This document shows, in pieces, positions 3-22,650 of a stretch of 56,659 bases of DNA. The notes under the pieces were generated by a model. That model ran no database searches and was not told the DNA's origin. It saw only the letters and a list, made by a program, of their open reading frames with translations. The DNA is from Synergistaceae bacterium (lineage in GTDB: Bacteria > Synergistota > Synergistia > Synergistales > Aminobacteriaceae), in contig JAFSKV010000022.1 of assembly GCA_017448795.1 (NCBI GenBank), forward strand, positions 1-56,659, in the 5' to 3' direction. Each line of letters starts with the position of its first letter. Position 1 is the first letter of the stretch. The position numbers were made by a program, and so were the translations under genes.

Positions 3-1489
3 GTTCAGGGCATGGGCATAAAGTCGCTGGAAGGAATAGGATACCTGACGGCCATAAAAGAGCTCAACTGTCGCGACAACAGCATAGAGACCCTCGACCT
101 TCACGGGCTGACGGAGCTTGAGATTATGAGGTGCGGCAACAGCAGCGTCCAGAGCCTCGACTTGTCCGGGTGCGCTGCCCTCAAGGAGATTCACTGCCAG
201 GAAAACGGAATGACCTTCCTCGGCATCACGGGGTGCAACGCGCTGGAATACCTCAACGCACGGGATAACGCCCTAACCGGGACGATTGACCTTCACGGAA
301 TGGCGACGCTCAGGAGGGTCAATGTCAGGCTGAACCAGCTTGCGAGCCTTGACGTTCACGGATGCGCGGCATTGACGGAGCTTTACGGAGGGACAACCAG
401 CTTCGGGAGCTCAACATCACCGGGTGCGACGCTCTGGAGATTCTCCAATGCGGTACTGAGGCATCATCAGGGGCTGACCACACCAACCACATAGCGACGC
501 TTGACCTTTCCGGCAAAAGCAGCCTCAAAGAGTTAATCTGCAAGCGCAACGGACTCACTGCCTTAGACCTCTCGGACTGCGCCGCCCTCGTGAGCGTGGA
601 CTGCAACAGGAATCAGCTGGCTTCCCTGAACGTAACAGGCTGTACCGCGCTGGAGTATCTTGTGTGCGGGAGCAACGACATAAAGAGCCTCGACGTTACG
701 CGCAACACGGCCTTGACTCACCTTGAGTGCTATTCATGCAGGCTTGAGGAGCTTGATGTGTCGCAGAATACGGAGCTTGAGTACTTGGACTGCGGAGGAA
801 TCTGGTACAACCCGGCAAGCACCTACAACACGCTCACAAGCCTTGACCTTGCGAACAACACGAAGCTGAAGACGCTAATATGCGACCGGAACAAGCTTAC
901 GGCACTTGACCTGAGCAGCCTTCCCCTTCTCGAAAGGCTGGAATGTTACAGCAACGACATCACCGCCCTCGACCTCAGATTAGGCGCGTCCGGCATCATG
1001 TCCGAAATCCCCAAGCTCACAGTCCGCTACTCACCCGGCAGCATGCCCTACCACACCGACATGAAGGACTACACAGGCGACAGCTTCACCAGTATCACCA
1101 GCCTCACAGCCTGCACGTCAGACGGCGGCGAAATCCTCACGTCATTCATGACTGACGGCACGGCGAGTTTCGAGAAGCTCCCGGTGAAAGTCGTCTACAC
1201 GTATGACACCGGCTACACTGGCTCGGCGGATATTTCGGCGGACATCAAGATTGCCCTCGTCCCTGACCCGGATAACTTCTTCTCGCCGCTTACGGTTTCG
1301 GTTGATGTCGTCTCGCGTGAAGTTGTTGTATCGCCGGAAATCCGCTACGTCTACATAGTCTCGCCAGACCCAAGCCATGACGTACGAGGCACAGGCGGCT
1401 CAAGCGGAGGATGCAACGCACTATCAGGCGCATTCATTCTCGCGGGCGTTCTCGGACTGACAGGACTCGCTGTCTCAAGGAAGCACTAG
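3..1489 (+). pseudogene. Leucine-rich-repeat surface protein with Synergist-CTERM tail, frameshifted, 5' end off window
   Basis: The reading frame is already open at the window edge, so the N-terminus lies outside. The protein is a run of roughly 21-residue leucine-rich repeats of the type L..L.C..N.L..LDL.... An N-terminal piece (frame of position 12, to 494) and a C-terminal piece (frame of 362, to 1489) carry continuous repeat homology, but the frame switches near positions 385-400, as expected for one missing base. After the repeats comes a beta-rich region and then a C-terminal GSSGGCN motif, a hydrophobic helix and the basic end SRKH. This is the Synergist-CTERM pattern, so a secreted, envelope-anchored protein is inferred. 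The shift could be a real mutation, phase variation or an assembly error. The ligand is unknown. Confidence 0.8.
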
Positions 1490-1500
1490 CACACACAAAA

Positions 1501-1535
1501 TCCCCCAGTCGCAAAAACGGCCGGGGGACTCTTTT
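1501..1535. terminator. Bidirectional intrinsic terminator between convergent genes
   Basis: An 11-bp stem with one mismatch (1501-1511 with 1518-1528) encloses a CAAAAA loop. It is followed by CTCTTTT on the plus strand and by TTTT on the minus strand. It serves the LRR gene and the nitronate monooxygenase gene. Confidence 0.75.
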
Positions 1536-1543
1536 CCTGCTGA

Positions 1544-2605
1544 CTACCCGAACAGTTCCGCGATTATGTCCGCGACCTTCTCAACCTTGTTGACCTTAAC
1601 CACGTTCGACCCACAGAAGAACAGCCCGGTCTCCCAGTTCCCGACCTGAGCGTCAACCAATGCCGCCGCAATGCAGAATGTCTCCTTCGTCTTACGGTAG
1701 CGGCAATGACTCAGGCAGTTGGCGAAACACGGCTTGCTCTCGACTTCACCCTCAAGATACTTCGCGACAAACGGATTCTTGATGGCGCGTCCCGGAAGTC
1801 CCGCAGGGCTGTGTATCAGCACAACGTCCTCTTCCTTCGCGTCAATATACGCCTGCTTGAACCTATCCGACGCGTCGCCCTCAACTGTACACGCAAAACG
1901 AGTCCCCATCTGCACCCCCGACGCTCCAAGCGCGAATACCCGCTCAATGTCCGACCTGTCCCAGATTCCCCCGGCGGCTATCACGGGAATATCGCTCCTC
2001 ATCTCGTCCCGGACATACCTCACAACTTCAGGCAGCGCGTTTTCGAGCCTCAATGCCGGGTCAAATACCTGCTCAATCGTCATCGCCCCAAGATGCCCCC
2101 CGGCAGTAGCAGGCTCCTCCACAACAAACGCGTCCGGGACTCGGTGATACTTCTTCTCCCAGTGGCGCGTGATGAGGCTGGCGGCTTTTGCTGACGACAC
2201 TATAGGCACTAGCGCGACATCAGGAAAATCTTTCGTGTAGTCCGGCAGTCTGAGAGGCAGTCCCGCGCCCGATATGATGATGTGCGCTCCTCCTTCCGCT
2301 GACGAACGTACCTGCCTGTCGTAGTCGGTCAAAGCTACCATGCAGTTCACCGCGACAATTCCGTCAGGCCCGGCGATTGATTTTGCCTTCGCTATGGCTT
2401 CCTTTATGACGATCTCGTTCACGTCAAAGTAGTTGTGCTTCTCTATCTGGAACAGCGGCGAGTCATGCGCTAGTCCTACGCTCGCTATTGTCCCTATTCC
2501 TCCGTTCCTGGCAACATGGCCGGCTAGGTTCGGGCCGGATATGTCGACTCCCATTCCTCCCTGTATGAGAGGGTAACGGGGCTGGTACTTCCCTATTCGC
2601 AACAC
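1544..2605 (-). CDS. Nitronate monooxygenase family (2-nitropropane dioxygenase-like) flavoprotein
   Basis: This is a TIM-barrel FMN enzyme family that oxidises nitronates; FabK-type enoyl-ACP reductases are relatives. Visible motifs are the N-terminal PLIQGGMG, VNCMVAL, VEEPATAGGHLG, VIAAGGIWD and GASGVQMGTRF (flavin phosphate binding). A Cys-rich C-terminal stretch (CFANCLSHC) is common in anaerobe members. I chose GTG at 2605 because AAGGAG lies six bases upstream; TTG at 2602 is the alternative, and an in-frame ATG 36 bases further upstream has no better site. It is monocistronic, converging on the LRR gene. The substrate is not determined; FabK-like activity cannot be excluded. Confidence 0.85.
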   Translation of the reverse strand: MLRIGKYQPRYPLIQGGMGVDISGPNLAGHVARNGGIGTIASVGLAHDSPLFQIEKHNYFDVNEIVIKEAIAKAKSIAGPDGIVAVNCMVALTDYDRQVRSSAEGGAHIIISGAGLPLRLPDYTKDFPDVALVPIVSSAKAASLITRHWEKKYHRVPDAFVVEEPATAGGHLGAMTIEQVFDPALRLENALPEVVRYVRDEMRSDIPVIAAGGIWDRSDIERVFALGASGVQMGTRFACTVEGDASDRFKQAYIDAKEEDVVLIHSPAGLPGRAIKNPFVAKYLEGEVESKPCFANCLSHCRYRKTKETFCIAAALVDAQVGNWETGLFFCGSNVVKVNKVEKVADIIAELFG

Positions 2606-2686
2606 TAATTGCTCCTTCCTTAGTCTGTGATGGATGCGCAAAGTATATCATGCCGATTCTGAATCCTAATGAGTGATTGAGCCTGT

Positions 2687-4051
2687 TTACACGCGCTTGA
2701 GCCTCACAGTGAAACACGTACCTTCACCCTTCTTGCTGACGGCTGAAATTTTCCCGCCGTGTGCCTCAACTGTAGCCTTCACGATTGCCAGGCCGACTCC
2801 GCTTCCTCCTGTTACGCGGGTACGGGACTCATCAGCCCGCCAGAAACGCTCGAATATATTGGGCAGGTCTTCCGCCGAGATTCCGATTCCAGTGTCAGCA
2901 ACCTCAATCACAGCGTCCTCACCGTCAGCATACAGCCTCAGCCACACATTCCCCTCCGCGTCAGTGTAGCGCAGAGCATTCGATAGCAGGTTGTCGATGA
3001 CGTGCCGGAACTGCTCCCGGTCAACATCACACGTTACAGCCTCAAGCTCGGCGTTAAGCGTGATTCCTGACTTGGCGAAAACGGGGGAAAAACTCTCCGC
3101 GACATACTCAAGAAACTTCTTCATGTCGGTAGCCTCAATGTTAAGCCTCAATGTCTCGCCCTCAATCCGCGACAAGGCATCAACATTCCCGATGAGGTCA
3201 GCGAGTCTCTTCATCTCGTTCACGCAGAGTGTGAGACGTTCGGGAGTCGGCTCAAGAATCCCGTCAGCAATAGCCTCAATCTGTGTGCGTGTTACCGTGA
3301 GGGGAGTCCGCAGCTCGTGGGCAACGTCAACCATAAGCCTCCGCCTCAGTCTCTCCTGCCCCGCAAGCGACCGCCCCAAATCCTCAACTCCCCGTGTCAG
3401 CGCGTCAAGCTCACGAATCCCAACAGGCCGGGCTTCTTCGTGAACGTCATAATCCCCCCGCGCAATATCCTTAGTCCTCTCAATCGCAAGTATCACAGGA
3501 CGGCTCAGTCTCCCGGCAACAACATAACCCGCACCGCATGCGCACAATATCATCAACAACGCGCCCGCAAGCGTGTAGTTCATGAGGTAAGTGATGAATG
3601 AGGCCTCATAGCGTCCTGTAGGTATCCTGCGCTCAATCTCAAGTCTGCCTTTATTCCTGGCGAGGATGATAGTCATGTGTTCTGTTTCGGATTCGGGGGG
3701 CTGGGCTTCTGGCTGGGAATTGTGATTCCTGCGCGTCATAGGCATGGGGCGGAGCGTGTAGACTTCCCGGCCGTCAGCGTCAATGAGGGCGATTATCATT
3801 CCTGCCCACTGGGGAGCGGGGCGCAATATGTCCATGACACGGCGGCGTTTCCAGACTCCTCCTTCCTCGTCATAGAGATTCGCAAGAGACTCGCCCAAGT
3901 TCTCAAGGTCAGCCTGCCTTCTCTGTATCTGGTAATTCCTGAAGGCCTCGACGCTCATCTTCACGCACAGGAAAGGCACGACAATTCCCGACACAACCGC
4001 AAGTATCACGTAGAGAATCAGGAAATGCGAACGCAGCGACTTACTTCTCAT
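2687..4051 (-). CDS. Sensor histidine kinase (HAMP, HisKA, HATPase_c)
   Basis: This is a membrane kinase of about 454 residues that should phosphorylate the adjacent OmpR-type regulator. A transmembrane helix near residues 10-32 is followed by an extracytoplasmic sensor region with a charged, Pro-rich linker, a second helix near 155-178 and a HAMP segment. The H-box (DVAHELRTPLTV), N-box (NLLSNALRY), G1 (VADTGIGIS), F-box (FERFWRAD) and G2 (GGSGVGLAIVK) are all intact. The ATG at 4051 overlaps the end of the regulator gene, which indicates translational coupling. The genes divergent from the pair encode small secreted proteins, which suggests an envelope signal. The stimulus is unknown. Confidence 0.92.
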   Translation of the reverse strand: MRSKSLRSHFLILYVILAVVSGIVVPFLCVKMSVEAFRNYQIQRRQADLENLGESLANLYDEEGGVWKRRRVMDILRPAPQWAGMIIALIDADGREVYTLRPMPMTRRNHNSQPEAQPPESETEHMTIILARNKGRLEIERRIPTGRYEASFITYLMNYTLAGALLMILCACGAGYVVAGRLSRPVILAIERTKDIARGDYDVHEEARPVGIRELDALTRGVEDLGRSLAGQERLRRRLMVDVAHELRTPLTVTRTQIEAIADGILEPTPERLTLCVNEMKRLADLIGNVDALSRIEGETLRLNIEATDMKKFLEYVAESFSPVFAKSGITLNAELEAVTCDVDREQFRHVIDNLLSNALRYTDAEGNVWLRLYADGEDAVIEVADTGIGISAEDLPNIFERFWRADESRTRVTGGSGVGLAIVKATVEAHGGKISAVSKKGEGTCFTVRLKRV

Positions 4052-4724
4052 CGTCAAACCTGTAGCCGAATCCGTAAACTGTTTTTATCCATCCGTTTTC
4101 GTGGCCGGGTTCTGCGAGCTTCTTGCGCAGGTTCTTTATGTACGTGTCAATCGTCCTGTCGAAGCCGTCATAGTCGTCCCCCAGCGCCGAGCGTATGATT
4201 TCGTCCCTTGACCACGTGCGTATAGGGCGTGATACGAGGGTCGAGAAGATGAGGAACTCGCTTTTTGTTACGGGAATGGGCTTGCCGTCCTTGCGTATTT
4301 CGACTCTCTCCGGGTCAATCTCAATTCTTCCGTCAGCACAGAACCCGGAAGCTATGTTGTCCCTTGTTGCGGCAGGACGTAACTGCGCGCGGATTCTCGC
4401 CATCAATACACGGGGGCTGAAAGGTTTTGCCACGTAGTCATTCGCGCCTGAATCTAGCCCGTAAACGACATCAGACTCTCCGGTTTTGGCCGTCAGCATT
4501 ATGATTGGGACTTGGGATTTCTCGCGGATACGGCGGCATACTTCCTCGCCTGACAATTTCGGGAGCATGAGATCGAGAATGACGAGGGAAATATCTTCAT
4601 GGCCGAAAATTTCGAGGGCAGTCAGACCGTCAGCAGCTGTTACAGTGTCGTAGCCCTCACGTTTTGCGTACGCGCTCACAACTTCTGCTATTGGTGCTTC
4701 GTCCTCAACGATAAGAATCTTCAC
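4041..4724 (-). CDS. OmpR/PhoB-family response regulator
   Basis: An N-terminal receiver domain (KILIVEDE acidic pocket, phosphoacceptor Asp in VILDLMLPKLSG, Lys in VAKPFSP) is joined to a C-terminal winged helix (RTWSRDEII, DRTIDTYIKNLRKKL, KTVYGFGYRF). I chose the GTG at 4724 rather than the upstream ATG at 4754, because AAAGGAG lies 11 bases before it and the protein then begins directly with the first receiver strand. It is the first gene of a two-gene operon with the kinase. The 99-bp gap to the divergent secreted-protein genes is the obvious place for its operator; no direct repeat was identified with confidence. Confidence 0.93.
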   Translation of the reverse strand: MKILIVEDEAPIAEVVSAYAKREGYDTVTAADGLTALEIFGHEDISLVILDLMLPKLSGEEVCRRIREKSQVPIIMLTAKTGESDVVYGLDSGANDYVAKPFSPRVLMARIRAQLRPAATRDNIASGFCADGRIEIDPERVEIRKDGKPIPVTKSEFLIFSTLVSRPIRTWSRDEIIRSALGDDYDGFDRTIDTYIKNLRKKLAEPGHENGWIKTVYGFGYRFDDEK

Positions 4725-4823
4725 GGTGAAAATTTCTCCTTTCACAAAAATCACAGATTGGATTCATGCCTCATTCACATTCCGGGATTATTCTATCAGC
4801 GTTGAAACAAGGAGGTAATCACA

Positions 4824-5225
4824 ATGACAAAGAGAACGAAATTTGCAGCAGCATTGATGATAATAACAGCAGGAAGCGCGTTGACAATAGCAGGCACAGC
4901 AGGAGCAGAGGAAGTAGAAGCGTCGAGGTATCATCCCGGACACACGCCCCCGCCTCACGAATGGAGAGAACCCCCGCATGACAGATGGGACAGAGGACCG
5001 GGAGGCCCAGGAGGACACATGCCGCCGCCGGATTGGGACAGAGGACCGGGAGGACCGGGAGGACCGGGAAGACGACTGCCCCCGCCCGACGTAAGACCCG
5101 GAGGACCGGGAAGACGACTGCCCCCGCCCGACGTAAGACCCGGAGGACCGGGAAGACGACTGCCGCCGCCTGACAGAGGACCGGGAGGACCCGGAGGACA
5201 CATGCCCCCGCCCCCGCCGCGCTAA
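4824..5225 (+). CDS. Small secreted Pro/Gly/Arg-rich repeat protein
   Basis: A 133-residue protein with a signal peptide (MTKRTKF, hydrophobic core, cleavage near AGA-EE). The mature part is low complexity: repeats of RGPGGPGG, HMPPPDWD and a 14-residue unit RRLPPPDVRPGGPG. Two copies of that unit are exact at DNA level (5070-5111 and 5112-5153), with a third partial copy. AGGAGG lies eight bases before the ATG. It is the first of three co-directional genes for small secreted basic/proline-rich proteins, divergent from the two-component system. No enzymatic domain is seen. A disordered envelope polymer or polyanion/metal-interacting role is only conjecture. Confidence 0.75.
   Translation: MTKRTKFAAALMIITAGSALTIAGTAGAEEVEASRYHPGHTPPPHEWREPPHDRWDRGPGGPGGHMPPPDWDRGPGGPGGPGRRLPPPDVRPGGPGRRLPPPDVRPGGPGRRLPPPDRGPGGPGGHMPPPPPR
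5070..5173 (+). repeat. 42-bp tandem repeat inside the Pro/Gly-rich gene
   Basis: Two perfect 42-bp units (5070-5111, 5112-5153) are followed by a diverged partial third unit. The unit length is a multiple of three, so copy-number changes would keep the reading frame. Confidence 0.8.
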
Positions 5226-5264
5226 GAGAGAATGACACACAGACAGAAAGGAGACATAAATACC

Positions 5265-5594
5265 ATGAAGAAAGCATTGACAGCAGGACTGGTGTTAGCA
5301 GGAGTACTCGCAGTAACAGGGTCAGCGTTCGCCGCAAAAAAGCCGGCTCCTGAGCCAGAACCGAAGCCTAGAATGCAAATAGTCGCGGACAAGGTAGACG
5401 AGATAGAGCGCAGAAGCGGCAAGAAGCCCGCACTGCCCCCCGCGCAGCGCCCGCCAGTGATTAGCAGGGACAGAAGGCCGACAACATCCCCCAGCCCACA
5501 ACGCCCGCCCATGAGCAGAGACACGAGACCGCCTATGCCCCCGCGTTCAGGAGACAGAAGGCCGCAGGATTTCGGCAGGGTACAGCCCAGATAA
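5265..5594 (+). CDS. Small secreted Pro/Arg-rich protein
   Basis: A 109-residue protein starting at the ATG preceded by AAAGGAG; an upstream in-frame ATG at 5232 lacks a ribosome binding site. It has a signal peptide (MKKALTAGLVLAG, cleavage after AFA), then a KPAPEPEPKP linker, a short helical segment (MQIVADKVDEIERRSGKK) and repeated Pro/Arg motifs such as RPPMSRD and RPPMPPR. It is the second gene of the secreted trio and sits close to its neighbours, so it is probably co-transcribed. I recognise no named family. Confidence 0.75.
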   Translation: MKKALTAGLVLAGVLAVTGSAFAAKKPAPEPEPKPRMQIVADKVDEIERRSGKKPALPPAQRPPVISRDRRPTTSPSPQRPPMSRDTRPPMPPRSGDRRPQDFGRVQPR

Positions 5595-5627
5595 CAGCCA
5601 GATAACAATTAAGGAGGATATACAGTA

Positions 5628-6158
5628 ATGAAGAAAGTATTAGCAGCAGCAGTAGCAGTGTGTGTGATTTGCCTTGCAGGGTCAGCATTGGCCTATCAGG
5701 GAGAACAGATGAGGCATCAGCCCCGCGGTATGCAGCCCCAGAATTTCAGGAGCATCCCGGACTTCAGAGGCCCGGCCCCGCATAACGTTTCAGGCGACAT
5801 GAGAGGCCCTCACGGAGATTTCCGGCCTCAGTTTGACGGAAGGCAGTGCAGGTTTGACGGAAGGCGCAGAGGCCCGATGTTCACTCCCGACATGCCCCAG
5901 GAAATCCGCGCAAAGGCAACGGAACTCGCGAAGCTCAGGGTTGATCTTGACGAGGCAATGACGGCCCGCCCGCTGAACAAGGAGAAGGCTCTTGAGGTTT
6001 TCGCGAAGATACAGAAGGCTGAACAGGAGATTGACGCGTGGAGGTTCGCACAGAGGCTTGAACGTATCGAGGCCTGGCAGAAACAGAACGAGCTGAACAG
6101 GACAGTACCGCCTGCACCGCCTGCCCCCGTACCAGCACCTGAAGCCCCGGCGGAATAA
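5628..6158 (+). CDS. Periplasmic CpxP/Spy/ZraP-like protein (probable)
   Basis: A 176-residue secreted protein with a signal peptide cleaved near ALA-YQ. A Pro/Arg/Gly-rich N-terminal region precedes a charged helical segment (about residues 85-145: EIRAKATELAKLRVDLDEAM ... RPLNKEKALEVFAKI). This resembles the helical hairpin of Spy/CpxP/ZraP envelope-stress chaperones. A Pro/Ala tail ends the protein. AAGGAGG lies ten bases upstream of the start. Its position opposite a sensor kinase/regulator pair matches known cpxRA-cpxP and zraSR-zraP arrangements, so feedback on the kinase is plausible. Family membership rests on pattern and context, not on an alignment. Confidence 0.65.
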   Translation: MKKVLAAAVAVCVICLAGSALAYQGEQMRHQPRGMQPQNFRSIPDFRGPAPHNVSGDMRGPHGDFRPQFDGRQCRFDGRRRGPMFTPDMPQEIRAKATELAKLRVDLDEAMTARPLNKEKALEVFAKIQKAEQEIDAWRFAQRLERIEAWQKQNELNRTVPPAPPAPVPAPEAPAE

Positions 6159-6190
6159 CAAGGCATTCACGCATCACGGACATAAAGAAA

Positions 6191-12739: not shown

Positions 12740-13055
12740 TAGAATACACGTTAAAGAATATTCCCCGTAATTCCGAAAAATATTGCGAATGACAAGCCGG
12801 GAGTGTGTTGTTTCCACTGTCATACATGCTCCTGATACACCCTGAGCAGGAGGCATAGGGGGGCAGGAGTTCACTGGTACAATATTTGCCCATCATAAAA
12901 TCAAGGAGGTGGACGCGGAGAACGAACATTTGCGCAATTCGGCAGGGGATTCGTCAAGATTTCCCCCATCAGAAAAATGCAACATGCAGGAAATATCTCA
13001 TCTATCCCAATCACAAAAACACACAAGGGAAGAAAGGACAAGGAGGTTTGTTCAC
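12740..13055 (+). other. 316-bp intergenic leader before the giant surface-protein gene
   Basis: No coding gene is supported. A candidate -10 TACAAT lies near 12876 without a convincing -35. An AAGGAGGTG at 12903-12911 is not followed by a suitably spaced start. A GGGG/CCCC hairpin is possible near 12944-12966. The real ribosome binding site (AAGGAGG) is at 13040-13046. The long 5' leader could be regulatory, but I recognise no riboswitch. Confidence 0.4.
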
Positions 13056-16000
13056 ATGAGAAAACGCATATTGTGCATTGGCGTGCTGTCGGCTCTGCTT
13101 GTGGGTATGCTGTCGGCTTCGGCTTGGGCTACAGACTACTACAGGCTGAACACTATTACAGCACCTGCCACTATCACAGCACCAAGATATACTGATGAGT
13201 ATGACATCGGTACTATCAAGCTCTCCGCTGATTACAGCTATCAAAGTGCTACAAGTCTTCCGTCAGGGTACAACACGGCGAATAAAATCACGTACGCTCT
13301 CAGCTTCAACCCTGAATCTATGGTAGCCACTGGCAAAACATTGACCAAACCAAGTGATACAAGCATAGCCAAGAAAAATGATAAGGTAGCTGTTAATCTT
13401 GTTGGCAAAGTTGTAGCATCAGGAACAGTAACCATAACCGCGACTCAGAAGCCAAGTACGGTTAATGCGACTTCCGGGCCTGAAATCACCAAGACGGCTA
13501 CAATCAAGATCACCATTCCCGAAAAAACCGCCCCGGTAGTCTCAGGCGACCCCACAATCTACTCGGTCTACTCCTACGACAAGGCTCTTGTTACCACCAA
13601 CGGCCTGAACGTCGTCAATCTCGGCAACTACCCTGAGAGCATCGACATTGACCTTGGCGGGGAGAAAAAATCGTTCTACGACGGGAAAACGGGAACAGTC
13701 TCGAAATACGGCATAACGGCCACACTTGACGCGTACACGAAGGGCAAAGACAGGAAAATCACCCTGTCAGGCACTCCCACTGAGCCGGTCGACAGCTTCA
13801 AGCTGACCATAGTAGCCCAGAACAAGAAGGCAAACGGCAAGTACAACAAGCTCACGAAGAGCTACACGCTGTCAATCTTCAAGCCCGCCCCAGTTGTGTC
13901 AAACGATACTCAGGCAGACCAACCGAGCATAGCTTCAAGGGACTACGTGGTCGGCCTCCCGCTTGCGGCCGGAAATTTTGCCCAGAAGAATTACACGAAC
14001 ATCGTCAACTTCGGCAACTATCCTGAGAGCATCGATGTAACGTTTGGCGTGGATTCCAGCGGCAAGCCCCAGACAATCCAGGCTTACGACGGGACATCGA
14101 AGACGATCACCTACAACGGCATAACCGCCACAATTGATGCCTACAACAAGAATAACAGGAAAATAACGCTGTCAGGAACGCCGACTGCCCCCGCTGACAA
14201 GGTCGACCTGAAAATCACGGTCAAGAGCAGGAAAGCAGGCGGAAAGTGGAACACGCTCAACAAGAACTATGTCCTGAAGCTCTACAAGCACGAGCCTGTG
14301 TTCTCAGGTGATGTGGGGATAATTCCGCTCGGAACAATCGCAACCGCGCAGCCGAAAACGAACAACAAGGACTTCACGTTTACTCTTGGCTACTACCCTG
14401 AGTCGATTGACATCACGATGGGAAACAAGACTGTAACCGCAGGCCTTGCAGCACTGTCCGCAACCGCTCTCGAAAACGGCATCACAGTGGCGGCAACATT
14501 ACTGACCAACACAAACGGAGTAGCCGCTCCCAAAGCGACAAGGGATGTTACCATTGCAGGCACGCCCACAGCGGCGACAGACGGGACTGACATAGTCGTT
14601 ACGGTCAAGAGCAGGGCGGCAGGCGGCAAAATCGCGTCTGTGTCAAAGACGTTCACGCTCTACGTCAAGGCGAAGCCAGTAGCCGACAAGACAGGCACAA
14701 CGGTCAACTTCACTGCCAACGGAGCAGCCTACGGTAATGCCGCTCTTCCTAAGAACTTAGGCGAGAAAATCAGGCTTGTACACACGGGAGCAAACGCGGA
14801 AAAAGCACTTGACACTACTGCTTTGACCACTGCGACGGCAAGCAAGCCAATCATTGAGCAGGACAGGCCTCTTATCAAGGCTCAGACAGACGTTCTCAAG
14901 TTCAACCTGACAGGAGCGACTCTTCCCGTAACAATCACTGCTACAGGCCTCCCCAAGGGGCTTGAAATCAGCCAAGACGCGGGGCTCGACGCATCCAAGA
15001 ACGCCAGCGGTGTCGGAACAGCGACGGCATACATCAGGGGCACTCCTCAGGAGTCGGGCTCATTCGACATCAAGCTCATACTGACGAACGACCTCTCCAA
15101 GGTCCAGAGCGTCGACAAGGACGGAAAGGCTACATCTGTTGCGGCTGACATAGCAGGCTGGAAACTGTCTTCTACGACTATCAGCTATGACTACAAGCTG
15201 GAAGTCATCCCCGCCCCCTCGTTCGACATCAAGAAGCTCCCCGACCTGACATGGAGCCAGGACTACAGCCTGACCTCAAAGGACATCAAGGCCACCGGGG
15301 CAGTAGCGTCAACCGGGCGCACACTCCGCTTCACACTCAGCAACACCAAGAAAGTGAAAGAGGGCAGCGCATGGAAGGATCAGACAGTGCTTCCTCCCGC
15401 CGTGCTGAAGGTTGACCGCCTCACCGGGAAGATCACGGGCAAGCTGACATCCATGGACTATGACACTCCCGCAGTGTTCAGCTTCGACGCGAAGGCAAAA
15501 CTTGAGAAGAGCGTAATTATCACAGTCAGCAACGACCTCCGCGCTGTGTCGAGGGAAGTCTCGATTGACATTCTCGCGGTCGCGCCTGATTTCGCGGACA
15601 AGGGCAACATCCAGAAGAACCTGAACGCCCTCAAGCTCAAGTACAGCGATGATGTGAGCTTCAAGATCTCGGCGACCAAGGTGCCCGGCACAATCTCGTG
15701 GGACATCGACAGCTCCAAGCTCCCCGCGGGCCTGAAAGTCCTCATCTCCGGCGAGAAAGCGGACGCTACGGGCAAGAAGGCAGACTCAGGCACAGCAGAA
15801 ACCGTGTCCAAGACCTACATCACCCTCAAGGGCAAGCCTAAAGTCGCGCTCAAGAACTACAGGCTTCCCATAAAGATGGGCAACGCTGTCGGAAGCGTGG
15901 ACCTGTCGCTTGTCTTTAACGTAGGGGACGGCGGCTCGCTCACAGTCATAGGCAGGAAGATGGCAAGGGGCGAAAAGGCACTCCACACGTACAAGGTAGA

Positions 16001-19000
16001 CAAAAGCGGGAACGCCAGCGGAAGAGCGGTGAAACTTGAGCTGACCAGCAGGGACACAGACAGGGTGCGCGGAACTGACATAGTCAGCACGGACCTTGAC
16101 AACTACTTCTGGGTTGAGCCAGGGCCGATCAAGTGGTCGATAAGCGGGCAGCCCTCTGGCGTGAGGATTGTAACCGACTCCTCGCTTGAGTCCTTTGACA
16201 CGCTTGCCCACATCGAAGGCGAACTCAAGAGCGCGACAAAGCGCGACAAGGAGACGGGCAAGACGTGGTACACAGTTACGGCGAAGAACACTGTAACCAA
16301 CACGGTAAAGGAGTTCTCGACGGATCTCACGGTCTTTGCTGACCCGCAGATAACCACAAAGACACTTGCGCCGCTGACGACAGACAAGAATTACAGCGGG
16401 ACGATTGTGGGCTCAGGCGGTGAATCCGCTGACCTCTCATGGACGATAACAGTCGTTACATCAGGCGACGTGAACGACACAAGGTCTCCCAACAACAGGA
16501 CGGCCAAACCTGCATCGCTTCCTTCACCGAAGGGCAACAAGGCGATAACGCAGGCAACGTACACCTCCCCTGTGTCAGGCGCGACTTCAACGCTTACCTT
16601 CAAGAGGGACGCGAAGACGGGGAACATCCTCATCACAGGAAGCCTCGACGCTATGCCCTCGACGGACGTGAACCTTGACACCGTCAGGGTATGGGTAAGG
16701 CTGTCGAATGACTACACAGGAGTCGCCGTGAGCAGGGATATAGCCCTCCTCGTGAAGGGAATCGCCCCGAAGATCACTACGAACCAGGCGGACGCGACAA
16801 AGAACGCCGACTTCGAGATAGGGACAGCGGGCAGCTTCCCGGTCGCAGCAACAGGAACGAAGCCCATAGTTTTCGGCGCGTACATCGACACGGCAGCGGC
16901 CAAGACGTACTTCGGGCTTGACGGCAAGACCAGCATCGACCTGTGCTTCCCTACTGGCAGCGCACCCGACAATTACCCCGACGGACTAGGCCTCAGGTTC
17001 AACTCGAATGACGCAAGGCTCGAATACACGACCGACGGCAAGCTCGCCCTGAGCCAGCTTCCGATAACGTTCGCGGCGAGGAACGCGGCGGTGAAGAAGC
17101 CAGTAACGAGATCCCTCAAGGTCAACATCAAGGGCAGAGGGGTCAAGATCTATGAGGACAATGACGAGGGGACTACTGTTGTCTCGCCTGACATCACGAT
17201 ATTCGGCGTTGCGGGTACGGAGGGGGATCCGTTCATCAAGCTCATAGTCAGCGGGGACGGCCCGTTCTCCTACACGCTGTCGCCGAAAGATCTCGACAAC
17301 AAGGGCAACCAAATAGTGAAGAACGGCCTCTCCATCACGTCAGAGGATGAGGATGGCAAAAAGGTCTTCAAGATTTCGGGAACTCCGACGGCTGGCCAGG
17401 AGACAAAGACACCGTTCGCCATCACGGTCGTGAACCCTTCAACAAAGGCGAAGGCCTCCGCGAAGATAACCATTGTGGGCGCGCTTCCTCCTGAGATCAA
17501 CGTGAAGAAGGACAAGGACGGGACAGAGCAGCCGTTCGAGAAGGTCGTCGAAATCGGAAAGACCCTCAGCCTCAAGCTCTCCACGAAGAAGGGTTCAAAG
17601 CGCGCTGTCGTGAAGAACACCGCCAAGACAACGCAGGTGAGCGTGTGGAAGTGGGACACGAAGGACATCGGATATGCGCCTATCAGGTGGCTGATTGACG
17701 ACGAAGCGGGCGATCCGTACAAGACTGCCGCGGATCTTGTCGCGCTGGGCCTCTCGTTCGACTCTGAGACAGGCACGTTCAAGGGTACTCCCAAGATGGT
17801 AACCTCAGCGGACGATACGGATGCCAAGTACAAGTACGAGCCTTACACGTTCTCCGTCAAGGCGAGCAACGACGCGGGCATCACCGAGGGCGTGGATGTC
17901 ATCATCGGCGTAAAGGGAGCGAAGCCGAGAATCACAACGAAGCTCATTGTGTTCAACAAGGGCGACGCGGACAACTCTGACCCGTTCTTCATCAGCAGCC
18001 CGGACAAGATGCTCAAGACCAACATACTCTCAGACGACACGACAGCCAACGTGCGCTGGGCGTGGGGGAGCGGTGCTGATCCGAGTGCTGTGGGGCTTGA
18101 CGATGAAATCAAGGGCGTTGGCATCAGCGACAACTTCGGCAACTACGGGCTTCTGGCGAACTCCGGGATAGCGGCCGCCGACGCGACAAAGGGCAAGTCC
18201 CTGAAGGTTTCGGCCGACAACATGGGAACAGTAGTAACGTCCAACATCAGGATCGGCATCAACGACGCAAAGCCGGAAATCCAGGGCGAGGCGACACTCG
18301 ACGCTACAGTGACAAGCGAAATTCAGAGGCTTCCGGTAACCTACACCATCAAGACAGAAAGCACGATGGCGACAGGCGACACGAAGCTGAAGTGGACGCT
18401 CTCCAAGAAGCCCACAGGAGGCATCATATCCGCGACAATCAAGGCGGCGACTGACGGGAAGAGCGCGACGGTGACCTACACAGTCCCGAAGAACGCGCTT
18501 GTATCCACAGACGAGGCCAAGACTGACACGGTTCAGGTCGTGGTAACGAACACCTACACGAAGGAATACGGCTCGTTTGACGTGAAGATAACCATCAATC
18601 CGCCGTCTACAGCTCTTCCTGCCGCGAAAGATGCTCTTCCTGAAGACAGGCTTGACGCTGACGACGAGGCACTTTCTGATGACCTTGAAGCCGAGGAAGG
18701 CGCGGTAACATACGGCGGCGCGAGGACGATAGAAGCCCTCACGGCGGATCAGCGCAGGGTTCTTGCTGAGGGCGGCTACATCATAGCGGCTATACTTCCT
18801 GAAATCAGGGCGGAAGAGTCAGGGCAGTATGACCTTGAGGCAGTGTCCCTTGACGAGGCCGCGCCGGAAGGTTACGAGCTCGTTTGGTTCGCGTTCCCTG
18901 TTGATGTCGAAAGCTCGGACGATGACCTTATCGCTGAGTTCTACGACGAGGCAGGAGCTGAAGTGTTCGCTGTTCCTGAAGGCAGAGTCGTTGTCCCGTC

Positions 19001-19202
19001 CCCGTGGCTCGAAGCTGAGATAACCTACGCGCCTGTGATAGCGGTCAAAGCACCCGCTGCAGGAGATGCTAAGGACTCACTAGAGAACGCGGAGGAAGGC
19101 GACACGGTAACAGAAAAGGCACTTGAGGAAGCCGGGGAGAAACCTGCGGATGAGGATGAAGCCCCTGTGATTGAGCTCACAGCGGAGGACAAATCAGAGT
19201 AG
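13056..19202 (+). CDS. Giant secreted Ig-like repeat surface protein
   Basis: A 2048-residue exported protein. The start is the ATG after AAGGAGG; the frame is open 147 bases further upstream, but that part lacks a signal sequence. A signal peptide (MRKRILCIGVLSALLVG, cleavage near AWA) is followed by a Ser/Thr/Lys-rich region. Three tandem modules near residues 186-280, 318-410 and 443-545 each contain NYPESID, an ITLSGTPT-like motif and a final Y.L...K strand. Later segments repeat the putative-Ig (He_PIG) pattern in which a GTP motif follows a loop (RGTPQESG, SGTPTAGQE, KGTPKM). The C-terminal 170 residues are acidic. No Synergist-CTERM or membrane helix ends the protein, so it may be secreted or held non-covalently. 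An adhesin or surface-layer-like role is an inference. Confidence 0.8.
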   Translation: MRKRILCIGVLSALLVGMLSASAWATDYYRLNTITAPATITAPRYTDEYDIGTIKLSADYSYQSATSLPSGYNTANKITYALSFNPESMVATGKTLTKPSDTSIAKKNDKVAVNLVGKVVASGTVTITATQKPSTVNATSGPEITKTATIKITIPEKTAPVVSGDPTIYSVYSYDKALVTTNGLNVVNLGNYPESIDIDLGGEKKSFYDGKTGTVSKYGITATLDAYTKGKDRKITLSGTPTEPVDSFKLTIVAQNKKANGKYNKLTKSYTLSIFKPAPVVSNDTQADQPSIASRDYVVGLPLAAGNFAQKNYTNIVNFGNYPESIDVTFGVDSSGKPQTIQAYDGTSKTITYNGITATIDAYNKNNRKITLSGTPTAPADKVDLKITVKSRKAGGKWNTLNKNYVLKLYKHEPVFSGDVGIIPLGTIATAQPKTNNKDFTFTLGYYPESIDITMGNKTVTAGLAALSATALENGITVAATLLTNTNGVAAPKATRDVTIAGTPTAATDGTDIVVTVKSRAAGGKIASVSKTFTLYVKAKPVADKTGTTVNFTANGAAYGNAALPKNLGEKIRLVHTGANAEKALDTTALTTATASKPIIEQDRPLIKAQTDVLKFNLTGATLPVTITATGLPKGLEISQDAGLDASKNASGVGTATAYIRGTPQESGSFDIKLILTNDLSKVQSVDKDGKATSVAADIAGWKLSSTTISYDYKLEVIPAPSFDIKKLPDLTWSQDYSLTSKDIKATGAVASTGRTLRFTLSNTKKVKEGSAWKDQTVLPPAVLKVDRLTGKITGKLTSMDYDTPAVFSFDAKAKLEKSVIITVSNDLRAVSREVSIDILAVAPDFADKGNIQKNLNALKLKYSDDVSFKISATKVPGTISWDIDSSKLPAGLKVLISGEKADATGKKADSGTAETVSKTYITLKGKPKVALKNYRLPIKMGNAVGSVDLSLVFNVGDGGSLTVIGRKMARGEKALHTYKVDKSGNASGRAVKLELTSRDTDRVRGTDIVSTDLDNYFWVEPGPIKWSISGQPSGVRIVTDSSLESFDTLAHIEGELKSATKRDKETGKTWYTVTAKNTVTNTVKEFSTDLTVFADPQITTKTLAPLTTDKNYSGTIVGSGGESADLSWTITVVTSGDVNDTRSPNNRTAKPASLPSPKGNKAITQATYTSPVSGATSTLTFKRDAKTGNILITGSLDAMPSTDVNLDTVRVWVRLSNDYTGVAVSRDIALLVKGIAPKITTNQADATKNADFEIGTAGSFPVAATGTKPIVFGAYIDTAAAKTYFGLDGKTSIDLCFPTGSAPDNYPDGLGLRFNSNDARLEYTTDGKLALSQLPITFAARNAAVKKPVTRSLKVNIKGRGVKIYEDNDEGTTVVSPDITIFGVAGTEGDPFIKLIVSGDGPFSYTLSPKDLDNKGNQIVKNGLSITSEDEDGKKVFKISGTPTAGQETKTPFAITVVNPSTKAKASAKITIVGALPPEINVKKDKDGTEQPFEKVVEIGKTLSLKLSTKKGSKRAVVKNTAKTTQVSVWKWDTKDIGYAPIRWLIDDEAGDPYKTAADLVALGLSFDSETGTFKGTPKMVTSADDTDAKYKYEPYTFSVKASNDAGITEGVDVIIGVKGAKPRITTKLIVFNKGDADNSDPFFISSPDKMLKTNILSDDTTANVRWAWGSGADPSAVGLDDEIKGVGISDNFGNYGLLANSGIAAADATKGKSLKVSADNMGTVVTSNIRIGINDAKPEIQGEATLDATVTSEIQRLPVTYTIKTESTMATGDTKLKWTLSKKPTGGIISATIKAATDGKSATVTYTVPKNALVSTDEAKTDTVQVVVTNTYTKEYGSFDVKITINPPSTALPAAKDALPEDRLDADDEALSDDLEAEEGAVTYGGARTIEALTADQRRVLAEGGYIIAAILPEIRAEESGQYDLEAVSLDEAAPEGYELVWFAFPVDVESSDDDLIAEFYDEAGAEVFAVPEGRVVVPSPWLEAEITYAPVIAVKAPAAGDAKDSLENAEEGDTVTEKALEEAGEKPADEDEAPVIELTAEDKSE
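13610..14680 (+). repeat. Three tandem about 100-130-residue modules encoded in the giant surface protein
   Basis: Modules starting near 13610, 14003 and 14383 share NYPESID / YYPESID, an IT(A/L)-rich strand, (L/I)(S/A)GTPT and a terminal strand such as YTLSIFK, YVLKLYK or FTLYVK. They are diverged at DNA level, so this is an old duplication. Confidence 0.75.
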
Positions 19203-19286: not shown

Positions 19287-19315
19287 TTGACATTTGCGCG
19301 CTTATGTGTGATTAT
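19287..19315 (+). promoter_or_regulatory. Promoter of the attenuator-controlled DHQS-like gene
   Basis: A perfect -35 TTGACA (19287-19292), a 17-base spacer and GATTAT (19310-19315, four of six matches) with an upstream TG, as in extended -10 elements. It starts immediately after the preceding terminator and would give a transcript beginning near 19322 that contains the leader peptide. Confidence 0.6.
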
Positions 19316-19355
19316 TCTTACAGTTCCAAATTTTGAGCGGAGACAATTTATCACA

Positions 19356-19451
19356 GTGAACAAGAACATACTTACATCAGCAAATTATTTCTGGTTTAGC
19401 TTCGGCTTCTGGTATCGTTTCCAGAGGCTTGCACTGATTCGGCTGACGTAA
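19356..19451 (+). CDS. Aromatic-rich leader peptide (attenuation peptide)
   Basis: A 31-codon GTG-initiated frame ending in TAA. Residues 11-22 read YFWFSFGFWYRF: nine of twelve are Phe, Trp or Tyr, which is the hallmark of amino-acid-sensing leader peptides such as pheL and trpL. A GGAG lies 13 bases upstream. The coding region overlaps an 8-bp hairpin (19405-19412 with 19421-19428) and the first half of an antiterminator (19433-19442). It is too short for a functional protein. Ribosome stalling on aromatic codons would control the downstream terminator. The start codon is inferred; the frame and the stop position are directly visible. Confidence 0.8.
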   Translation: MNKNILTSANYFWFSFGFWYRFQRLALIRLT

Positions 19452-19526
19452 GGGACAAACCAAACGCAACAATACACGGAGAACACACGCCTTCCGAATC
19501 GGTCAAAGGATTTGGGGGGCGTTTTT
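19405..19526 (+). promoter_or_regulatory. Transcription attenuator: pause hairpin, antiterminator and terminator
   Basis: Three mutually consistent RNA elements. (1) A perfect 8-bp hairpin 19405-19412/19421-19428 lies over the Phe-Trp-Tyr codons. (2) An antiterminator pairs 19433-19442 with 19494-19503 (10 bp, one G-U). (3) A 14-bp intrinsic terminator pairs 19487-19500 with 19509-19522, followed by five T. Elements 2 and 3 share 19494-19500 and so exclude each other. A ribosome stalled at the aromatic codons leaves 19433-19442 free, favouring read-through. A ribosome reaching the stop at 19449 covers it, favouring termination. Confidence 0.8.
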
Positions 19527-19552
19527 CTATGCAGGAAGGAATGAGCTTAGAC

Positions 19553-20614
19553 ATGCCCGCAAACGTAAAGGCTAATGACGGTTACAGCATAAGGATACGC
19601 AGGGGAGTGATAGAGCGTCTCGGTGTTGAGATACTGAGGCTGGCTGATGAGGATTACGCTGAGATACTTATTGTAACGGACGAGAAAGTTTCAGGTCTCT
19701 ATCTCCAGAAGGCGATAACGGGTTTCCAGGAATGCCCCAAGCCTGACGGAATGAAGGTGAGGGTCTGCGAACTCATCATAGACTCGCACGAGGGCGCAAA
19801 AAATTTCCACACTATGGCCGGTCTTCTTGATGAGATGGCGGGGCTTGGCTTGTCCGGGAAATGCATAGTAACCGCTGTAGGGGGCGGGGTTGTCTGCGAG
19901 ACGGCCGGGTTTGCCGCCGGGTGTTACATGGGGGGCGTGAGGCTTGTGCTTGTTCCTACGACTTTGGCGGGGATGATTGAGGCTTCTGCGTGGGGGAGCG
20001 CGTTTCTCAACCTGAGTTCAGGGAAGAATCTTGCGGGGCTTTCCTGTCATCCGTCGCTTGTTCTCTGTGATACTGACTGTCTCAGGACGCTTCCGGCGGA
20101 AGAATACAAGTCCGGGATAGCTGAGGCCTTGAAGACGGCGGTGATGTCGGGCGGTGAACTCTTCAGGATATTTGAACGCGGTGATGTGCAGGCCGGCATA
20201 GAGCGGATAATTGAGAGCTGTGTGAAATACAGGGCAGGGCTGACTCCGGCCATGAGGACGAAATGTCTGGGCTATGCTCTGGGAAATGCAATCGAGACCA
20301 TGAGCGGCTACGGGATTCATCACGGGCTGACATTGTCTCAGGGTATAGGGATAACGGCCCGTGCTTCGGCGAAAATGGGCTGGTGCAGCGAGGAAACGTC
20401 AGCAAGAATCCTTGACGCTCTCACGAGGAACGGCCTGCCCTCGGAGTGCAGGAAATTTACGGCGGGGGAAATATCTCAGGCTTTGCTGAACGGGCGGAAA
20501 ATCTCAGGCGGCAGCTTTGAGCTTGTTGTTCCGGCGGAAATCGGACGGTGTGTTGTCCGGAACATCAGCGCGGGGGAGCTTGAAGGAGTGATTTCTGCGG
20601 GCATGGGGGCATGA
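19553..20614 (+). CDS. 3-dehydroquinate synthase family protein, active site degenerate
   Basis: A homologue of AroB (DAHP to 3-dehydroquinate, shikimate pathway) with the family scaffold: AVGGGVVCETAGFAAGCYMGG, LVPTTLAGMIEAS, SGKNLAGL, LPAEEYKSGIAEALK. The usual GGKTGVN is WGSAFLN, so the catalytic Lys is Ser. The LGHTxGHAIE block is LGYALGNAIE, so a metal-ligand His and a catalytic His are Tyr and Asn. The later His is kept (IHHG) but HGE is HGL. The start could be ATG 19529, 19541 or 19553; I chose 19553, 12 bases after AGGAAGGA and beyond the terminator. Regulation by an aromatic-rich attenuator links it to aromatic amino-acid metabolism. Its actual reaction is uncertain. Confidence 0.75.
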   Translation: MPANVKANDGYSIRIRRGVIERLGVEILRLADEDYAEILIVTDEKVSGLYLQKAITGFQECPKPDGMKVRVCELIIDSHEGAKNFHTMAGLLDEMAGLGLSGKCIVTAVGGGVVCETAGFAAGCYMGGVRLVLVPTTLAGMIEASAWGSAFLNLSSGKNLAGLSCHPSLVLCDTDCLRTLPAEEYKSGIAEALKTAVMSGGELFRIFERGDVQAGIERIIESCVKYRAGLTPAMRTKCLGYALGNAIETMSGYGIHHGLTLSQGIGITARASAKMGWCSEETSARILDALTRNGLPSECRKFTAGEISQALLNGRKISGGSFELVVPAEIGRCVVRNISAGELEGVISAGMGA

Positions 20615-20688
20615 AATTTCGGGGGCATGGGCGCGGGAAATGTAATATAATATCACCATCAGCTATAACAATTCAGGAGGTGCCAGGA

Positions 20689-21219
20689 ATGGACATTCGT
20701 TTTGTACAGCGCGGATGCGAAATCGATGACAGGCTCAAGGATTACATGGAGAAGAAAATATCCAAGCTGGAAAAGTTCTTCCGCCGTATCATGGGCTGTC
20801 AGATTGTAGTATCCCATCACAAGGGCAGCTTCAACGTCGAGACAACGGCCAATGCAAACGGTGTAATTCTCAGGGCAGAAGAGGACGCTCCAGAACCGCG
20901 CAAGGCTTTTGACCAGTCATTGAAGAACTTGGAGCGCAGGATCAAGAAGTACAATTCCTACCTCAAGGACAGGGCCCAGCTCGGAGCAGAGGAGGATTTC
21001 ACGTTCAGCGTTGAGGAGTCTGAAGCCGGTTCGGATACCCCGGAAATAGACAAGGTCAAGAAGGTGGAAGTTCACCCTATGGAGGCCTCCGAAGCGGTCA
21101 TGCAGATGGAGCTTGTAGGACATGCGTTCTTCGTGTTCCAGAATGCCGCGTCAGGTGAGATTAACGTTGTCTATAAGCGCGGAGAGAACAGCTACGGACT
21201 CATTGAACCCGTGAGGTAA
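20689..21219 (+). CDS. hpf: Long-form ribosome hibernation promoting factor
   Basis: A 176-residue protein. The N-terminal S30AE/YfiA domain (about 1-100: MDIRFVQRGCEIDDRLKDYM, KISKLEKFF, VVSHHKGSFNVE, ALDQ-like FDQSLKNLERRIKKYNSYL) binds the 30S decoding region. A linker leads to the C-terminal dimerisation domain (VHPMEASEAVMQMELVGHAFFVFQN, INVVYKRGENSYGLIEP). Long HPF makes 100S ribosome dimers in stationary phase. AGGAGG lies eight bases upstream of the ATG at 20689. A TATAAT-like sequence near 20650 suggests its own promoter, although read-through from the upstream gene is possible. Confidence 0.95.
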   Translation: MDIRFVQRGCEIDDRLKDYMEKKISKLEKFFRRIMGCQIVVSHHKGSFNVETTANANGVILRAEEDAPEPRKAFDQSLKNLERRIKKYNSYLKDRAQLGAEEDFTFSVEESEAGSDTPEIDKVKKVEVHPMEASEAVMQMELVGHAFFVFQNAASGEINVVYKRGENSYGLIEPVR

Positions 21220-22509: not shown

Positions 22510-22650
22510 CTTCATTCATCATTCAACGCGTCCGCTTTTGCGATGGTCTGCTACTCACGTTTGGTATGACGCTCCAGAGGCTTTGCTACGTAGTGCGCGT
22601 AGCTTTTCCCGACTAACGTATCGGTACATACCAATAATTCCTTGTCAGTG
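22510..22650 (-). ncRNA. Candidate omega-RNA / structured right end of the TnpB element
   Basis: Directly 3' of the tnpB stop on the same strand the non-coding DNA is strongly structured. TTGGTATG (minus strand of 22627-22634) pairs perfectly with CATACCAA (22561-22568), enclosing an inner hairpin GCTACG/CGTAGC (22585-22603). Omega-RNAs of IS200/IS605 TnpB overlap or follow the tnpB 3' end and terminate at the element's right end, with the guide taken from flanking DNA. Exact ends cannot be set from one copy. Confidence 0.45.

Follow-up and report, generated by a model that had tools for sequence, protein, structure and literature searches.

What does an amino acid attenuator control in a genome that appears to have lost synthesis of the amino acids it senses? 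This question is raised by a leader region in a 56,659-nucleotide stretch of DNA from a gut bacterium of the Synergistaceae (the window), which had been described on its letters alone as an aromatic transcription attenuator ahead of a shikimate-pathway homologue. We consider it likely that this attenuator, reading the charging of Phe, Tyr and Trp tRNA, has outlived the pathway and controls a degenerate 3-dehydroquinate synthase homologue (AroB*) and, probably by read-through, the ribosome hibernation gene hpf.

The leader region (19287-19552) was analyzed by sequence reading, simple scans and folding, and all elements of an attenuator were found. The promoter, 31-codon leader, codon hairpin, antiterminator and 14-bp terminator with T-run lay where the preliminary description had placed them; the 1:2 protector helix was added here, as was the adjacency of hpf. 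The elements are as follows.

19287-19315, forward strand: promoter, TTGACA, a 17-bp spacer with TG at its end, and GATTAT (scan; kept in relatives)
19339-19342, forward strand: GGAG, probable ribosome-binding site of the leader (sequence; conserved in most relatives)
19356-19451, forward strand: leader peptide open reading frame, GTG start, 31 codons, VNKNILTSANYFWFSFGFWYRFQRLALIRLT and stop (sequence; frame kept in relatives)
19371-19381, forward strand: strand 1 of the protector (1:2) helix, CTTACATCAGC (MFE fold; paired changes)
19404-19429, forward strand: hairpin over the aromatic codons, 19404-19412 with 19421-19429 (folding)
19433-19442, forward strand: antiterminator strand 2 in the window register, ACTGATTCGG (folding, alignment)
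19442-19452, forward strand: strand 2 partner of the protector helix, GCTGACGTAAG (MFE fold; paired changes)
19494-19503, forward strand: antiterminator strand 3 in the window register, CCGAATCGGT (alignment, paired changes)
19487-19522, forward strand: intrinsic terminator, 14 bp, followed by the T-run 19522-19526 (scan, folding, paired changes)

Codons 11-22 of the leader, the control codons, read YFWFSFGFWYRF, which bears out the nine aromatic codons among twelve consecutive ones reported before. The run is not a product of chance, since it is the only stretch with at least nine aromatics in 12 codons in the six frames of the window and no such stretch occurred in 40 Markov-simulated windows. 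The control codons separate the two strands of the protector helix, the second of which contains the leader stop (19449-19451). The terminator folded with a z-score of -5.9, and none of 200 shuffles folded equally well. A caveat for the leader start is the long spacing of 13 nt between GGAG and GTG. Shine-Dalgarno-like sequences were located 12-14 nt before the start codons of both the leader (19339-19356) and aroB* (19533-19553), with similar spacing in relatives.

In Rfam 15, whose families include attenuator leaders, T-boxes and riboswitches, no covariance model matched the region at its gathering score. A covariance-model search of the window genome for further copies of the attenuator returned none that was convincing, the next best hit (E 0.009) having no aromatic leader. 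The sequence ATACACGGAGAAC (19470-19485), between antiterminator and terminator, was conserved in many relatives in the alignment. Directly upstream of the leader, positions 12909-19202 (forward strand) encode a repeat-rich, probably exported protein of 2097 aa, and a related protein was present at 12 of 29 loci.

The region upstream of the orthologous gene was readable in 30 congeneric genomes; each of them showed the same architecture there, and these relatives back the earlier view of the genome as Synergistota-like. In all 30 the aromatic leader was in frame and 27-35 codons long, and the promoter TTGAC[A/T]-17 bp-TGn[A/G]AT[T/C/G]AT was kept in 29. All 28 leaders compared within the genus had codons for Phe, Tyr and Trp, so the mixed composition first noticed in the window holds for the genus; in the peptide alignment the three residues interchange at many positions, while one Trp is invariant.

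Covariation was analyzed across the orthologous upstream regions, where the aromatic run and the helices were kept and compensatory changes were present. In the 28-sequence alignment, 93.7% of the antiterminator cells were paired and 12 cells had changed on both sides, at 4 of the 10 pairs; none of 500 shuffles, which as controls ignore relatedness, equaled this, and no slid register came close. For the terminator (mean z -6.0 across 28 genomes), 98.8% were paired, with 16 cells showing two-sided changes, at 4 of 12 pairs. The protector helix alone was 87% paired with two-sided changes at 5 of 12 pairs, and jointly with the codon hairpin 89.4% paired with 17 such cells. Slid registers of terminator and protector helix likewise scored far lower. 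The codon hairpin was 93% paired in this alignment, yet showed no two-sided change.

The antiterminator was part of the MFE fold in nearly every sequence. Its register in the relatives, CTTTGGCTGA/TCAGTCAAAG, is equivalent to 19437-19446/19499-19508; that of the window is shifted by about 4-5 nt, pairs perfectly and carries matching changes on both sides. In two genomes (G051 and G053), CTTTG in strand 2 has become ATTCG alongside a change of CAAAG to CGAAT in strand 3. Protector, antiterminator and terminator are thus three mutually exclusive helices, each supported by paired changes.

With a leader reading frame carrying control codons, exclusive helices, a stop in strand 2 and a terminator before the gene, the element can be assigned with high confidence to the ribosome-mediated transcription attenuators of the classical type. 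A stop within strand 2 and control codons between strands 1 and 2 are also the layout of the classical attenuation model (PMC1183508). The trp/phe logic proposed at the outset is backed by the conserved leader and by the paired changes in exclusive helices. By analogy with trp, phe and his attenuators, the signal would be a shortage of charged Phe, Tyr or Trp tRNA. When aromatics are plentiful, the ribosome at the leader stop would mask strand 2, strand 3 would pair with strand 4, and transcription would terminate near 19526. When any of the three is short, a ribosome stalled on codons 11-22 would cover strand 1, leaving strand 2 to pair with strand 3, and transcription would read on. An untranslated leader would form the 1:2 helix, again leading to termination. 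Control over the biosynthesis of the sensed amino acid, which is usual for such attenuators and not essential, was not found here.

Sensing of several amino acids by one attenuator is known from ilvGMEDA. The preliminary description overstated its case in calling mixed sensing unusual: as summarized in PMC11802643, the aroR leader of Corynebacterium glutamicum carries Phe-Tyr-Phe before the shikimate (aroF) operon (Neshat et al. 2014). That leader shares its mixed aromatic codons with the window, but it controls a functional DAHP synthase, belongs to an unrelated organism and has no Trp codons reported in the summary. The uORFC-13-1 motif of Acholeplasma (PMC8632094) likewise contains one or more Phe codons and is predicted to act as a uORF attenuator on the common aromatic pathway, although it stands before aroF, in another phylum, and uses Phe only. 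The E. coli pheA, trp and pheST attenuators (named in PMC11802643) have the same short leader with control codons, three exclusive helices and a terminator before the gene; the window differs from them in combining three aromatics in one leader, in a target that is not a biosynthetic enzyme, and in the absence of the pathway. The attenuator as such belongs to a well-known kind, and there are precedents for leaders of mixed aromatic composition (PMC11802643, PMC8632094).

The first gene behind the terminator is the following.

19553-20614, forward strand: AroB*, a degenerate 3-dehydroquinate synthase homologue (Pfam, catalytic residues, selection, tree, fold)

Translation most likely starts at 19553, where MPANVK is conserved, with AGGAAGGA upstream, and less likely at the ATGs at 19529 and 19541; the terminator therefore leaves the aroB* ribosome-binding site exposed. 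AroB* shares with 3-dehydroquinate synthase (AroB, DHQS) its descent, its fold and both the N- and C-terminal Pfam domains (DHQ_synthase and DHQS_C). The predicted structure (pLDDT 89) had only DHQS among its best PDB matches, at TM 0.85-0.90. It differs from AroB in lacking the surrounding pathway, in missing the equivalog cut-off of TIGR01357 (188.6 against 305, where the operon AroB of a relative, L103, scored 339.5), and in its active site. Relative to the invariant residues of 15 canonical AroB homologues, the equivalents of the GGK Lys and of both GHTxGHA His were replaced in 27 of 27 full-length members; we take this Lys to be catalytic and these His to be metal-binding or catalytic in AroB. 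Loss of the active site is accordingly predicted with high confidence. In the tree, the AroB* clade was monophyletic (100/100) on a long stem beside operon AroBs of Synergistaceae. Its dN/dS of 0.06-0.12 indicates strong purifying selection, and its members share new, clade-specific conserved positions. Because of these two features, we read AroB* as either a pseudoenzyme or an enzyme whose chemistry has changed, rather than as a decaying gene. A non-DHQS use of the retained fold, under selection, appears most likely, any specific role being assignable with low confidence only. No pseudo-DHQS in such a setting was found in the literature searched, which covered few subscription journals.

The pathway was searched for in 43 genomes of the genus. 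Chorismate synthase (aroC) was detected in 4 of these drafts, 30 of which are at least 90% complete, and in 14 of 14 control genomes. EPSP synthase (aroA) was present in the same 4 and missing from the other 39, the window genome (98% complete) included. The window genome also had no DAHP synthase of type I, the type searched for. Type II dehydroquinase was absent. From these gene contents, loss of the aromatic pathway in the genus is deduced with high confidence, and the shikimate-pathway link drawn in the preliminary description is not supported for a degenerate AroB in such a genome.

Two candidate remnants of the pathway were rejected. A DAHP-synthase-like (PF00793) match occurred in nearly every genome, and the only one in the window genome was KdsA, 3-deoxy-8-phosphooctulonate synthase. 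Homologues of aroE and aroD also occur in the genus; in the window genome they lie in a transporter-containing, catabolic-looking cluster (L165). There, on the reverse strand (675-6181), their neighbors are transporter genes and an ORF resembling a sugar isomerase, a grouping that may serve shikimate or quinate breakdown.

The origin of the switch was traced with a covariance model. Hits at E<1e-10 were obtained in 32 genomes of the genus, namely the full set of 30 AroB* genomes whose upstream region is readable and two congeners without AroB* (G072 and G078), where the attenuator precedes tyrA-aroA-aroC-pheA. The attenuator is kept at both loci (L101 in G072, L100 in G078), and L101 additionally has an aroK-like ORF. 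Neither AroB nor a clear DAHP synthase was found in these two genomes, which are possibly users of external shikimate. The element also heads aroF-tyrA-aroB operons in other genera. Aromatic leaders were seen before aroF in seven of them (g8, g11, g29, g35, g36, g39 and g55) and in G171 (g52); they are mostly Phe/Tyr leaders, with Trp in 5 of 16 versus 28 of 28 in the genus of the window. Since similar leaders stand ahead of intact aroF-tyrA-aroB operons elsewhere in the phylum, the switch probably arose as the attenuator in an aromatic operon spread across the phylum (aroF-tyrA-aroB-aroA and further genes) and was kept after pathway loss. No attenuation of this kind in Synergistota was found in the literature, few subscription journals being covered.

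AroB* is followed by a second gene with a possible promoter of its own.

20646-20651, forward strand: TATAAT, probably belonging to a separate promoter for hpf and located shortly past the aroB* stop (conserved in aroB*-hpf intergenic regions)
20689-21219, forward strand: hpf, long ribosome hibernation promoting factor (PF02482 and PF16321; TIGR00741 over cut-off)

The hpf product has both the S30AE and the C-terminal domain, as in long HPF, and differs from it in its position behind an amino acid attenuator. In 30 of 31 genomes (29 of 30 loci plus G075) the gene came directly after aroB* and in the same orientation, the exception being G064, where aroB* lies apart from hpf (L219). The flanks of the pair vary, the largest upstream cluster comprising 12 of 29 loci and the largest downstream cluster 9. 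Outside the AroB* clade, hpf was not adjacent to aroB where looked for. No terminator was visible between the two genes. Given the TATAAT and this absence of a terminator, two promoters probably serve hpf: its own and, by way of read-through, the attenuated one. The attenuator would then control AroB*, and aromatic starvation would also raise hpf transcription on top of its own promoter; for hpf such control is suggested with moderate confidence. No published case of an HPF under transcription attenuation was found, in a search covering few subscription journals.

An insert of about 260 bp between aroB* and hpf in G068 contains a RAGATH-18 RNA (L011, 1242-1307, reverse strand) and is too short to hold a TnpB gene as well; in G085 (L004), the aroB*-hpf gap has a comparably sized insert, which had no Rfam match. 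Elsewhere in the window, a TnpB-family gene (NF040570; 22645-23622, reverse strand) is followed after about 65 nt by a RAGATH-18 RNA (22515-22580, reverse strand), positioned as expected of a TnpB guide RNA, and the pair sits within a biotin gene cluster (bioA, bioD, bioB and bioY-like ORFs).

A bolder form of this reading, to which we give somewhat less than an even chance, is that the orphaned attenuator was rewired, so that aromatic starvation directly turns on HPF together with a neofunctionalized, non-catalytic protein of DHQS fold. A substantial though smaller chance is given to an attenuator acting on AroB* alone, in a new aromatic-starvation function, with hpf adjacent by history and served only by its own promoter. 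AroB* is conserved on its own account, and the attenuator may matter little for hpf because the latter has its own conserved -10; genus members without AroB* have a promoter-like sequence before hpf as well, with other upstream neighbors and no attenuator. However, the adjacency has persisted in all but one genome despite shuffled flanks, and the lack of a visible terminator also argues against it.

That attenuator and aroB* are decaying remnants of the lost operon would fit the missing pathway, the C-terminal truncation of AroB* in G052 and G080, and the roughly ten genus genomes without AroB*, most of which also have no attenuator. This is improbable and already disfavored by the selection estimates: dN/dS is low, new positions have become conserved, all three helices show paired changes within the AroB* clade, and the promoter is retained almost throughout. 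Very improbable, too, is a terminated leader RNA or leader peptide selected for action in trans, for which the strong conservation of leader and helices and the precedent of rnTrpL/peTrpL in Sinorhizobium (PMC7298713) might speak, but the peptide outside its aromatics varies freely (pN/pS about 0.5-1.5) and AroB* is itself conserved downstream. Least probable of all is ordinary feedback by a general aromatic attenuator on a working shikimate-pathway gene, to which the Pfam domains, the DHQS fold and the same switch before true aro operons in relatives would point, but which is opposed by the replaced catalytic residues, the missed TIGR01357 cut-off and the absence of aroA, aroC and type I DAHP synthase described above.

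What is new is the setting preferred here, in which a sensor survives the loss of its pathway and precedes a conserved protein stripped of its catalytic residues, with a ribosome hibernation gene next in line. The standard teaching is that an amino acid attenuator gives feedback on synthesis of the amino acid it senses; across this genus, the sensor has probably outlasted that synthesis, and an aroB annotation in such genomes does not equal aromatic prototrophy. If read-through into hpf is real, ribosome storage would be coupled to how well particular tRNAs are charged, directly and with no protein in between, and the locus would exemplify regulatory exaptation following the loss of genes.
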